A DNA stretch of 64,000 bases from assembly GCF_027923585.1 (NCBI RefSeq), contig NZ_BRPL01000002.1, positions 930,001 to 994,000 of the forward strand, in the 5' to 3' direction. The DNA comes from Philodulcilactobacillus myokonensis (GTDB lineage: Bacteria; Bacillota; Bacilli; Lactobacillales; Lactobacillaceae). Shown piece by piece: positions 21,376 through 25,947 of the stretch. The notes under the pieces are model-generated. The model ran no database searches. It was given only the letters and a program-made list of their open reading frames with translations, and was not told the origin of the DNA. Numbering within the stretch: position 1 is the first letter of the stretch; the number at the start of each line of letters is the position of its first letter. The position numbers and the translations under genes are program-made.

Positions 21376-21427
21376 AAAAGATACCCTAAAATTTTCAATT
21401 TATTTTGAAAATTTAGGGTATTTTTTA
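21376..21427. terminator. Bidirectional terminator between rpsT and holA
   Basis: A long stem TACCCTAAAATTTTCAA/TTGAAAATTTAGGGTA (one bulged base) has A- and T-runs on both flanks. It serves rpsT on the plus strand and overlaps the holA stop on the minus strand. Confidence 0.9.
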
Positions 21428-22441
21428 TTTAGAAATAAAACTCAACATAAACATTTCAAAAAGCAATTCCGGAGAAGCTTGAGATGATTTTAATTTAATT
21501 TCATTGTCAATTAATCCTAAGTACGCTTGTTTTAATTCTTTAAATTGATATGTTTGAATTGTTCTTAATGCAAGTTTGATTCTAAATGGATGAACTTTTA
21601 AGATACTAGCTAAACTACCCTGACTGTGACCATGGGAAGCTAAAATCATAACTTGAAGTAAAAGTCTAAATTGACTAACAAGAATTGCATTAATTTGAAG
21701 AGGTTCTTTTTGCTCTAAAATTAAATTATGGTATAAATCGACGGCTAATTTAACCCGTTTTTTTAAAACATAGTTAACTAGATCAAAAATATTTTGATCC
21801 AGTGATTTAGTTACCAGATTATTTATAGCATTGCTAGTAATAACTTTATCACGGCAATAAACAAATAATTTTGGCAGTTCATTCATTATCATTGATAATT
21901 TACCGCCAGTTCTTTGAATCAGCAAATTTAGTGAATTTGCATCACATTTATAATTGTGCTGGTTAATGTAACTTTTGACGTAATTTTTGACTTGGCTTTC
22001 AGAAAATTTGTTTATATCAACCATTTCTGCGACATTTTTTAGCCTTTTAGTAACTTTTTTTCTGCCATCCAATTTAGGATATGGAGCCATGAAAACAACC
22101 ACTGACGATGGTTCTGGATGTTTTAGATATTGAATTAGTCCATCAATATCATGGTCAATATTATTTGATACCCGTTTGTTCGTTAAAAAATACGGTTGGT
22201 TAATTAGAACAACCCGTCGTTTACCAAAAAAAGGTGCTGACATTGCATCGTTCAAAGCAGCAGATAAAGGAGTGTCTTCCATATCATAGGATGCGTAATT
22301 CATGGTCCGTTCTTCCTTTGGAACAAGTTTAATAAACGCATTTTTAATTTGATCACTTAAATATTCCTGCCTTCCAAGAATCAAATAAACCGGCTTAACA
22401 TCGTTCTTAGGTAATGATCTTAATAGTTGATTCACATTCAT
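21425..22441 (-). CDS. holA: DNA polymerase III delta subunit
   Basis: The delta subunit opens the sliding clamp during loading. The length (338 aa) and segments VYLILGRQEYLSDQIKNAF, FFGKRRVVLINQPYF and the C-terminal ELLFEMFML fit HolA; it lacks a Walker A motif, as this subunit does. Two in-frame ATGs exist (22453 and 22441). GGGAGG directly abuts the first, so I prefer the second. It follows comEC after 11 to 23 bases, and this comEC-holA order is conserved. Confidence 0.9.
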   Translation of the reverse strand: MNVNQLLRSLPKNDVKPVYLILGRQEYLSDQIKNAFIKLVPKEERTMNYASYDMEDTPLSAALNDAMSAPFFGKRRVVLINQPYFLTNKRVSNNIDHDIDGLIQYLKHPEPSSVVVFMAPYPKLDGRKKVTKRLKNVAEMVDINKFSESQVKNYVKSYINQHNYKCDANSLNLLIQRTGGKLSMIMNELPKLFVYCRDKVITSNAINNLVTKSLDQNIFDLVNYVLKKRVKLAVDLYHNLILEQKEPLQINAILVSQFRLLLQVMILASHGHSQGSLASILKVHPFRIKLALRTIQTYQFKELKQAYLGLIDNEIKLKSSQASPELLFEMFMLSFISK

Positions 22442-22464
22442 ATTGAAATTCATCCTCCCTTCAT

Positions 22465-24624
22465 TTAATTAGAATTTTTAATAAATGGATGCCAGGATCC
22501 ATAATGATTAAAATAACGATAAGTAATCATCCCATTTGTCTGGGTATTGTATTCAATCATATGACGTTGCTTAATTTTAACAATTGTCTCTGGATTGGGA
22601 TGATGATAACGATTATTTCTGCCAGCTGAAATAATTGCTATTTTGGGTTGAACTGCATTTAAAAATTCATTGGACGAGGAGGTATTGCTACCATGATGTC
22701 CAACTTTCAATACATCAGTCCTTAAATTGGGCATTTTTTGAATAATATCATTTTCACCGGCTTGATCTAAATCACCCATAAAAAGCCATTTTAATCCACC
22801 AAAATAACCATTCAGAACCATTGAATCATGATTATTACCAAGTCCCTGAACAAATGGATGGACAATATCAAATGGCAATCCATTAATATGATCATTTGCC
22901 TTTACTTGAATAATTTTAGTTTTATTAATATAGGGATCAATTCTATTCATAAAATGTTGATTATTAACCATTCCTAATGGAATAAATAACCGCTTAACTT
23001 TCATTTCAGAAAGAAAAGCTGGTAAATCACCACAATGATCAGCATCTTGATGACTGATGCATAAATTATCGATCCAATCGATGCCAATGCTATGAAGATA
23101 ATTAATTGAAATTCCATCAGCCTGATAATGATTGGTTTGGGGTTGATTTCCAAAAGTTATTTTACCACCTGTATCAATCAAAGTAATCGTTTTATTAAAC
23201 GGTTCACGAACTAAAAAGCTATCACCCTGTCCAACGTCAAAATAACTTACTTCCCCATTAAAGGGAAAGTGAATGCTCAAAAATGAAACCGCGTACAGCA
23301 TTATTAAAAATAATATTTTAAATTTTCTTTGAACAGCAATGATACTAAATGTAATCAAAAACAATATCAATGTAATATAGATATTCAATTTACCAAACAT
23401 AATATTACCAGGTAAATTGCCAATTAGATTAACGAATGCATCGAAAAATTGCAATATTTGTGCAATAATTTGACCAACAATGGGAATAAATAATCCTACT
23501 GAGCATCCGATTATTACCATCGGAAAAATAAGGATTGAAAATAATGGTAATATTAATAAATTAGCAAACATCGTTAATAAATGCCATTGATAAATATGAT
23601 AAATAATAATTGGTAAACCAATTAGGTTCATTAATGCGGTCTGTTTCAAGAATGAAAAATGATTTGTGAATATTAATCCAAATGACAGAGCATAACTTAA
23701 TTGACATCCAAATTGAATTAACATTTGCGGATATAGAAACAGATTGATTAATAAAGTAATTGACCACACATCTAATGGATTTAAATTGATTTTTAAAAAT
23801 TTAGTGGTCAAAATGGTTTCAACCATTAAAATTGATCTTAATAACCCGATTGAAGAACCTGCAATAACAAAATATACTGGCAACAATGCCATGATTAATA
23901 AACGATAGTCTTCTCGTTTCATTCGTAAATATATGAAGAATAATTCCAGCATGTTAACAATATAATAAACATGCAAACCGGAAATACTAAATAAGTGAAT
24001 TAACCCTAATTGTTTAATACCAGTTAATTCACTATTAAAATCATTATTCATGCTGCCAAGAATTAAACTTAAGCCATATAAATTTAAAGGATGCGGCAGT
24101 TGATCCATTGATTGCATCATTTTAAATCTTAAGTTATGAATCATAGCAATCAATGAATGGTCCGGTTTAAATTGAATCATTTGATTAATTTTAACTTGAT
24201 TAGATATGTTTTGACTTTGGTAAAAGCGACTAGCATTAAATTGATTAACATTGGTCGGTGATTTAATTGGGCTAACATCAGCATTAACTAGCCACGTTCC
24301 ACTCACATGATTGGTTTGCTTAATTTGATTTAAATCATCATCATTTTTAGCGTAACCACTTATAATTAAATGCTGATTTAACCCATCTGACCATCCCCTT
24401 CCATGATAATAATCACCATCATATTGAATATCATCAGGATAAATTTGAACCTGCATTTGTTTGTGATTAATCACCACGGATTGGTGTTCAAGACGGTTAA
24501 AATTAAAAAGACATAAGCATAAAAAAGCAGCTGCAATTAAAACGTTTTGAACGAAAAAATGGGGCTGTTTTAATAAATAAATTCTGATTAGCCAGAAAAT
24601 AAGTAATAAGCAACTAAGAATCAT
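22465..24624 (-). CDS. comEC: ComEC/Rec2 DNA uptake channel; true start probably a non-standard codon at 24696
   Basis: ComEC forms the membrane channel for single-stranded DNA in competence. Visible parts are N-terminal helices and an OB-like segment, a competence domain of several helices (LFSISGLHVYYIVNML), and a C-terminal metallo-beta-lactamase domain with SHQDADHCGD and VGHHGSNTSSS. The first ATG is at 24624, with no SD. The frame stays open 25 codons further up to comEB, encoding YIFPAVLCAIVSCFFIGP, which looks like the normal ComEC N terminus. No ATG, GTG or TTG occurs there. At the comEB stop the sequence is TAATC, where similar gene junctions here read TAATG. Confidence 0.88.
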   Translation of the reverse strand: MILSCLLLIFWLIRIYLLKQPHFFVQNVLIAAAFLCLCLFNFNRLEHQSVVINHKQMQVQIYPDDIQYDGDYYHGRGWSDGLNQHLIISGYAKNDDDLNQIKQTNHVSGTWLVNADVSPIKSPTNVNQFNASRFYQSQNISNQVKINQMIQFKPDHSLIAMIHNLRFKMMQSMDQLPHPLNLYGLSLILGSMNNDFNSELTGIKQLGLIHLFSISGLHVYYIVNMLELFFIYLRMKREDYRLLIMALLPVYFVIAGSSIGLLRSILMVETILTTKFLKINLNPLDVWSITLLINLFLYPQMLIQFGCQLSYALSFGLIFTNHFSFLKQTALMNLIGLPIIIYHIYQWHLLTMFANLLILPLFSILIFPMVIIGCSVGLFIPIVGQIIAQILQFFDAFVNLIGNLPGNIMFGKLNIYITLILFLITFSIIAVQRKFKILFLIMLYAVSFLSIHFPFNGEVSYFDVGQGDSFLVREPFNKTITLIDTGGKITFGNQPQTNHYQADGISINYLHSIGIDWIDNLCISHQDADHCGDLPAFLSEMKVKRLFIPLGMVNNQHFMNRIDPYINKTKIIQVKANDHINGLPFDIVHPFVQGLGNNHDSMVLNGYFGGLKWLFMGDLDQAGENDIIQKMPNLRTDVLKVGHHGSNTSSSNEFLNAVQPKIAIISAGRNNRYHHPNPETIVKIKQRHMIEYNTQTNGMITYRYFNHYGSWHPFIKNSN

Positions 24625-24695
24625 TGGACCAATAAAAAAGCAGCTTACAATTGCACAAAGAACTGCTGGAAAAATATATAAATTAGTTTTTATGA

Positions 24696-25172
24696 TTAAT
24701 TAGATAAATAGGATGAAAACGGTAATTGTTTCATGATTTTAGGATTTAATTTAATCTTTTTTAAAGTAACATGTTTTAATTTGATAAGCGATTTAGCATA
24801 TGCACTATCATGATAATCCCTTAAATAATTGATTTGTTTAATTCCGGATTGTAATAACACCTTAGTACATTGTAAACATGGGAAGTCAGTTACATACAAT
24901 TCAGAATTATACGTTGCCTCGCCAAATTTAGCACACTGGGCAATTGCATTCATTTCAGCATGAATAGTTCTCAAGCAATGACCATCAACCATGTAGCATC
25001 CCTTATCTGTACAATGAACATCACCAGATACAGAACCATTATAGCCACTAGCAATAATACGGCGATCTCGCACAATTGTAGCTCCCACTGACAAGCGATT
25101 ACAAGTACTTCTAGATGAAATTAATACTGCTTGAAGCATGAAGTATTGATCCCAAGGAATTCTTTGATCCAT
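24696..25172 (-). CDS. comEB: ComEB, dCMP deaminase family protein
   Basis: The 158-aa protein has the zinc cytidine/deoxycytidylate deaminase signature: HAEMNAIAQC near 93-102 and PCLQC near 118-122. It is encoded between comEA and comEC as in B. subtilis, where its role in DNA uptake is marginal; dCMP deamination supplying dUMP is the likely activity. The stop codon touches the upstream end of the comEC frame. Confidence 0.9.
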   Translation of the reverse strand: MDQRIPWDQYFMLQAVLISSRSTCNRLSVGATIVRDRRIIASGYNGSVSGDVHCTDKGCYMVDGHCLRTIHAEMNAIAQCAKFGEATYNSELYVTDFPCLQCTKVLLQSGIKQINYLRDYHDSAYAKSLIKLKHVTLKKIKLNPKIMKQLPFSSYLSN

Positions 25173-25219: not shown

Positions 25220-25918
25220 TTATTGAACACAAATAAAATTTTTAATGTTATCAAAACTACGATCGCCAAATCCTGGGATATTTTTAATATCTTCAATTTT
25301 ATTAAAATCACCATGTTCTTTTCTGTAATCAAGGATTTTTTGTGCTTTCTTTTCTCCAACACCATTTATTTTTTGCAGTTCATTTTCATCTGCCGTGTTC
25401 AAATTAATTTTATTTGATGTCGAATCACTTGATGATCCACTAATATCACTTGTCTGAGAACTAGATGTATTATTTACGTTAGTTACAATTTTACCTTTGA
25501 TTTCACCACGAAACGGAACGTAAATCACCTGTTGGTCATTTAATTTTTGCGCTAAATTTACGTGATTTCCATCAGCTGATTTAGTTAAACCACCCGCTGC
25601 CTCGACAGCATCATCAATCCTTAAGCTTGACGGTAATCGATAAACACCCGGTTGTTTAACGGCACCCTTCACGTCAACCACGACGAGATTATTATGGGAC
25701 GTTTGGCTAAAAGAATTAGATGTTTGATGTAAATTCTTAATTTTAGAACTTGAATTAGTATTCATACTACTAGCTTGGCTCATATTATTTGAAAAATTGG
25801 TTTGTGAATCACCTTGATGATTAGAAAATAAAATTATTAGGATCAAAACAACAATCACCACCGATCCAATCATTAAATAACGACGATATTCATTTATGAA
25901 TTCCTTAATCCTATCCAT
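25220..25918 (-). CDS. comEA: ComEA, competence DNA receptor
   Basis: ComEA binds incoming double-stranded DNA at the outer membrane face. From MDRIKEFINEYRRYL it has one transmembrane helix (about 14-35), a low-complexity Ser/Asn linker, an SLBB-type domain (VVDVKGAVKQPGVYRLP) and a C-terminal helix-hairpin-helix DNA-binding module (INLNTADENELQKINGVGEK). The ATG at 25918 has GGGAG 8 bases upstream; a TTG six codons earlier overlaps this SD. It opens the comEA-EB-EC run. No ComK-type box or SigX-type promoter was evident to me. Confidence 0.93.
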   Translation of the reverse strand: MDRIKEFINEYRRYLMIGSVVIVVLILIILFSNHQGDSQTNFSNNMSQASSMNTNSSSKIKNLHQTSNSFSQTSHNNLVVVDVKGAVKQPGVYRLPSSLRIDDAVEAAGGLTKSADGNHVNLAQKLNDQQVIYVPFRGEIKGKIVTNVNNTSSSQTSDISGSSSDSTSNKINLNTADENELQKINGVGEKKAQKILDYRKEHGDFNKIEDIKNIPGFGDRSFDNIKNFICVQ

Positions 25919-25947
25919 CCATTTCACTCCCTTCAAATATAAATTCG

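Follow-up and report, generated by a model that had tools for sequence, protein, structure and literature searches.

A conserved AUU, AUC or AUA codon at the comEB stop is the probable start of comEC in Philodulcilactobacillus myokonensis and related lactobacilli

Results

The comEB-comEC junction of P. myokonensis

The window, by which we mean the whole stretch of 64,000 nucleotides analysed here (P. myokonensis, contig NZ_BRPL01000002.1, positions 930,001 to 994,000), carries comEB and comEC on its minus strand, with a comEA-like ORF upstream and, downstream of comEC, an ORF (21425..22453, minus strand) that we take to be holA-like and that served as a control gene (Table 1). The comEC product scores over the TIGR00361 cut-off (254.4 bits against 190.05; NCBIfam profile match), contains PF03772 (Competence) and PF00753 (metallo-beta-lactamase) domains over cut-off and matches the ComEC of PDB 9vc6 (E 1.7e-68); by profile and by domains it is thus a member of the ComEC/Rec2 family. 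A fold search of the PDB listed the ComEC beta-lactamase-like domain 9ic4 and other metallo-beta-lactamase folds, with no match to helix 1 among the matches listed. Signs of decay are absent from this gene: its frame is open over 742 codons, and dprA and coiA (both over cut-off) are found in the genome together with the comEA-comEB-comEC cluster, in which comEA is labelled from its position.

Table 1. Coordinates of the features at the comEB-comEC junction (positions in the window)
Feature	Position	Strand	Basis or remark
comEA-like ORF, upstream of comEB	25220..25936	-	ORF list; label from position and look of C terminus
comEB (ComE operon protein 2, dCMP-deaminase-like), directly preceding comEC	24696..25172	-	TIGR02571, 257.5 bits (cut-off 219.45)
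comEB stop codon TAA	24696..24698	-	sequence
comEC start, alternative candidate, ATC, 1-base overlap with comEB stop	24694..24696	-	position as in the TAATT starts of L037, L053, L066 and L095
comEC start, best-supported candidate, ATA, 2 nt past comEB stop	24691..24693	-	aligned with the conserved ATT of relatives
comEC	22465..24693	-	742 codons from ATA; 743 from ATC; 719 from internal ATG
Codons of first predicted helix (residues 7-21, with ATA as residue 1)	24631..24675	-	AlphaFold model
Internal ATG, first canonical in-frame start, without SD	24622..24624	-	SD energy -2.4

The comEC frame, preceded by a TAA at 24702-24700 and open from 24699, begins TTA ATC ATA AAA ACT AAT TTA TAT ATT TTT CCA (translation LIIKTNLYIFPAVLCAIVSCFFIGP), so that two candidate codons, ATC and ATA, follow each other directly at the comEB stop. 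As the initial annotation had it, no ATG, GTG or TTG occurs past the comEB stop until the internal ATG at 24624 is reached. A Shine-Dalgarno (SD) sequence is missing both at the junction and at this ATG, with anti-SD pairing energies upstream of -0.6 (ATC), -0.6 (ATA) and -2.4 kcal/mol (ATG 24624); those of neighbouring starts are -8.6 (comEB) and -13.4 kcal/mol (second holA ATG). When the 31 neighbouring gene pairs of the window are compared (all minus-strand ORFs of at least 80 aa), comEC stands out, with no ATG, GTG or TTG before codon 25; next comes a doubtful 107-aa TTG ORF with its first canonical start at codon 16, and in the rest it falls at codon 10 or earlier. TAATG is found at four other junctions of the window (ORFs of at least 80 aa), one fewer than first counted.

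The stretch upstream of the internal ATG evolves as coding sequence

In ten disjoint pairs of close relatives (three of them Secundilactobacillus), differences within codons 2-24 of comEC fall at codon positions 1/2/3 in the proportion 12/4/22, 22 being synonymous and 12 not. For the same pairs, that frame, read inside comEB 5 to 20 codons further upstream, gives 6/11/7, with 7 synonymous differences and 17 that are not. By this pattern of substitution, codons 2-24 evolve as coding sequence. An AlphaFold model built with 26 aligned sequences (mean pLDDT 89.1; block means of 80, 94 and 91 for residues 1-10, 11-20 and 21-30) places a helix at residues 7-21, and the internal ATG is residue 24 counted from the ATA; in this model, a start at 24624 would delete the first predicted helix of ComEC. 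Together with the aligned starts of relatives (below), these results bear out the earlier view that the upstream stretch is a genuine ComEC N terminus.

An AUH codon is conserved at the start of comEC in related genera

Relatives were drawn from a scan of named species genomes (80 loci, the best 80 of 291), a family search (396 genomes, 337 with a comEB match), an order search (matches in 128 of 148 genomes) and 30 chosen handles. A subset of the matching genomes was fetched and the final set held 228 loci with 193 distinct junctions, 171 of them with a recognised ComEC frame beside comEB. The remaining 22 junctions (L193, L196-L209 and seven others, from lactobacillus genera and order relatives) have no recognised comEC frame after comEB. 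When the 171 comEC genes were aligned at their N termini, the start columns held AUU, AUC or AUA (hereafter AUH) and no canonical codon in 85, ATG, GTG or TTG in 78 and neither in 8, the AUH count being looser beyond close relatives, since isoleucine is common and the column window wide; genera g6, g22 and g5 are mixed.

We therefore rely on a strict set of 48 genes (Apilactobacillus 16, Fructilactobacillus 10, Lentilactobacillus 14, the Sy-1 genus 2, g34 1, g3 4, and the window), chosen from genera whose sampled members all lack a canonical codon there, Secundilactobacillus apart. Within this set the aligned comEC start is AUH in 48 of 48 genes (ATT 42, ATC 3, ATA 3) and ATG, GTG or TTG in none of the 48; the next-highest alignment column reaches 23/48. 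These counts carry a bias from choosing the ATH nearest the start column, isoleucine being common near membrane helices, and an ATH also occupies the codon directly before the start in 17/48. The start codon lies -1 to +2 nt from the comEB stop in 45 of the 48 (the exceptions being -5, +4 and +9), that is, close to the stop and with no SD of its own, as in a coupled gene pair. The same columns hold a canonical ATG, GTG or TTG in Levilactobacillus (31/31), Lactiplantibacillus (12/12) and family f2 (14/14), which identifies the column as the start. In Lentilactobacillus L058, L132 and L135, a canonical codon occurs at most 8 codons downstream of the AUH.

The 13 Secundilactobacillus genes all have AUH (13/13), and they were kept out of the strict set because in 7 of the 13 a canonical codon also lies in frame within comEB, 6-7 codons ahead of the AUH; further upstream codons, in L013 and L017, lie past an in-frame stop. 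The start region of L013, L017 and L213 reads CTG ACC followed by ATT or ATC, where a CTG start is possible. In L156, L168 and L173 (family f2, genus g47), the comEB match has an in-frame TAA, and the comEC ATG lies 45-55 nt past the first stop.

A ComEC tree of 125 rows, made quickly with the first 30 codons omitted and with 36 of 122 inner branches open, gave as the largest all-AUH group containing the window a clade of 45 rows (9 Secundilactobacillus; support 85; midpoint root), spanning 32.5 substitutions per site and six changes among ATT, ATC and ATA. This clade was picked as all-AUH, so its absence of canonical starts is partly by construction, and with only six such changes inferred the absence of ATG at the third base is not proof by itself. 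The whole tree requires 13 changes between AUH and canonical, where none of 200 shuffles needs fewer than 32. The genes themselves are largely intact: of the 51 fully covered comEC genes of AUH genera, Secundilactobacillus included, 47 are intact at no fewer than 690 codons. Four AUH-start frames (L066, L096, L123 and L137) end early, at 196-565 codons, possibly through local decay.

Neighbouring genes as controls

Over the 61 loci of the strict set and Secundilactobacillus, the aligned comEB start is canonical in 61/61, with group medians of SD energy from -6.6 to -11.4. The holA-like gene was found in 49 of these loci, with a canonical start in 49/49; its median SD energy is -9.3 (best candidate codon, 49 loci) versus -1.6 for comEC (fixed codon, 61 loci). 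The middle half of the 61 comEC values lies between -2.5 and -0.6, and the Lentilactobacillus median is -2.9. A strong or extended SD accompanying the weak codon was thus not found at comEC, either over the 61 loci (median -1.6) or in the window (-0.6). The gene infC was found in 20/20 genomes fetched. Of the nine loci read, start codons were compared in seven, and these seven, this genome included, show ATA followed by GCA and preceded by GGAGGTGA; in L233 and L235, both among the seven, an ATG stands two codons ahead of the ATA.

Which codon is used in the window

The Lentilactobacillus locus L092 reads TTA ATC ATT AAA, closely resembling the TTA ATC ATA AAA of the window, and the window's ATA aligns with the conserved ATT of L092, of L102 (CTA AGG ATT AGA) and of L119 (GTA ACG ATT AGA). 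At the position of the window's ATC there is AGG or AGA in L102, L132 and L133 and ACG in Fructilactobacillus L119-L121, so that in those loci only the later codon can serve. In L037, L053, L066 and L095, an ATT overlaps the comEB stop instead, and in the ComEC profile NF008580 residue 10 (counted from ATA) matches position 11, which mildly favours ATC. On alignment, ATA is most likely the start, with ATC as the next candidate.

AUH starts with an SD-like context in a second family

AUH starts of comEC also occur with another, SD-like context in a second family, f8. Of 15 f8 loci read by eye (L211, L219, L221 and L250-L261), 13 have AUC, AUA or AUU followed by GAA or GAG and preceded by a sequence resembling an SD, which is GGAGGG in seven of them; the exceptions are L253, which has ATG, and L211, an ambiguous case. 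L221, L250 and L257 have a GTG three codons upstream as well, for which L221 was counted as canonical in the column tally. Further downstream, a varying codon is ATG in L219 and L254, ATT in L255 and L256 and ATC in L261. A class-wide sample (121 genomes, 113 matched; 30 loci taken, 25 outside the order) was mixed and partly ambiguous; several of its loci have an ATG that overlaps the stop, and L299 has no ComEC. We restrict the claim of a conserved AUH start to Lactobacillales; the class-wide picture is mixed.

Discussion

The comEC gene of the window probably starts at a conserved AUU, AUC or AUA codon set at the comEB stop, which would be reached by SD-less re-initiation after comEB and would keep ComEC low. 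That the codon is used is suggested by its conservation; coupling and control by IF3 are suggested by the anatomy of the junction and by the literature. Ribosomes finishing comEB would re-initiate within about 0-2 nt, at AUA 24693-24691 or otherwise at AUC 24696-24694, where initiator tRNA would read the AUH codon and make formyl-Met the first residue of ComEC. The poor codon and the missing SD would together hold ComEC well below ComEB. More loosely, ComEC output may depend on IF3 and the state of the ribosomes, since IF3 discriminates against codons of this type and, when raised, also lowers re-initiation. The M13 geneV-geneVII pair offers a precedent, its downstream start lying at the upstream stop and being helped by an SD that it does not require (PMC2268962), as we propose for comEB-comEC; however, the M13 reporter uses AUG, whereas at comEC the codon itself is also weak. 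In E. coli, re-initiation falls when IF3 is overexpressed, and SD sequences are not required for it, although it is inefficient without one (PMC2268962).

The initial annotation had read the TAATC junction as an ATG start recently mutated to ATC in this strain, weakening comEC and marking early loss of competence. The junction is indeed of the TAATN form, with TAATG at four other places in the window, but the AUH codon in all 48 strict-set genes, the 47 of 51 intact comEC genes in AUH genera and the presence of dprA and coiA over cut-off with the com cluster contradict this account, which we regard as highly improbable. The other suggestion made at the time, that AUC initiates after re-initiation, came close: a non-standard start of the AUC/AUA type stands and re-initiation is the most plausible route, with the best candidate moving from ATC to ATA. 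The observation itself is real, and wider than first thought. It is also very doubtful that translation of comEC begins at the internal ATG 24624 or at the nearest canonical codon downstream, leaving the upstream stretch untranslated. This ATG is the first in-frame canonical codon, but it lacks an SD (-2.4) and its use would cost the first predicted helix, codons 2-24 of relatives show coding-type substitution, and genera with canonical starts align them with the AUH codon rather than with 24624. A conserved start at the equivalent of 24624 was looked for by aligning the junctions, in which relatives have their first canonical codon in many different columns.

Least probable of all would be a ComEB-ComEC fusion made by stop readthrough or ribosomal frameshifting. 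The two genes do adjoin or overlap, and comEC lies in the comEB frame directly past the stop in 15 of the 16 Apilactobacillus loci; yet all three frame relations are found (29, 19 and 13 of the 61 loci; 27, 19 and 2 of the strict 48), so that no single recoding event would serve, and related genera start comEC at ATG, GTG or TTG. A less remote alternative, still unlikely in our view, is that the AUH codon is used through fresh 30S binding instead of re-initiation after comEB. The SD-like sequence upstream of the f8 AUH starts (by eye) makes fresh initiation at such codons likely in f8, and the Lentilactobacillus median of -2.9 is not zero. Against it, SD energy is -0.6 in the window and from -2.5 to -0.6 in the middle half of the 61 loci, and in 45/48 the distance from the comEB stop to the codon stays between -1 and +2 nt.

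Low ComEC would then be a design feature that has been kept and not a symptom of decay, as we infer from the conservation of the codon. A switch from AUG to AUU was found once in 61,358 starts over 36 genome triplets surveyed (PMC5622118), and such switches being so rare, the retention of such a codon in many species suggests that weak initiation has been selected for. Going further, we offer as a tentative idea, more doubtful than the start itself, that in a large clade of lactobacilli and in a second, SD-bearing family of Lactobacillales ComEC stands under a conserved, IF3-gated AUH start, in the lactobacilli one that also lacks an SD and relies on re-initiation, and that this would place a translation-factor checkpoint on DNA uptake. 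In L. sakei, comEC is induced with sigma-H (PMC3364868).

Conserved AUU, AUC or AUA starts are known for few genes, and comEC would add a core DNA-uptake gene in which stop-start coupling replaces the SD. The AUU and AUA starts of cvfC1, ccpN and citZ in S. aureus give about 10% of the output of AUG in poor medium, and the AUH start of ccpN up to 30% in rich medium (PMC13009471). As at comEC, the non-canonical starts of ccpN (AUA in S. aureus and B. subtilis) and cvfC1 (AUU in staphylococci) are conserved between species and keep synthesis low; in contrast, both have extended SD motifs (PMC13009471), in place of which comEC, another gene in another lineage, has the juxtaposition of stop and start. 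The pcnB protein of E. coli, from another gene again, is likewise limited by AUU initiation (via PMC13009471). ATT starts in ribE are among E. coli N termini (PMC13245402). Searches of open-licence PMC papers turned up none that describes comEC as starting at AUH. A start-codon survey in L. monocytogenes confirmed the ATT of infC and the ATC of rnhC and listed comEC among 39 conserved genes with a flexible start codon (PMC13068326); the portion of the survey considered here neither gives the codons used by comEC nor describes a conserved AUH start for it. If f8 were the Listeriaceae, one could speculate that this flexible start is the varying downstream codon as annotated. In practice, automatic annotation may truncate ComEC in these genera, dropping its first helix, and a 'missing start' of comEC should not be taken as lost competence.

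A further parallel is infC, the gene for IF3 itself, which has AUU or AUA and is autoregulated in E. coli (PMC13009471). It shares with comEC a conserved AUH start but keeps a strong SD, whereas comEC lacks one and sits on the comEB stop. In P. myokonensis, too, infC (L247, G000:C2:714132-714632) has an apparent ATA start together with a strong SD, which agrees with the published AUA start in S. aureus.
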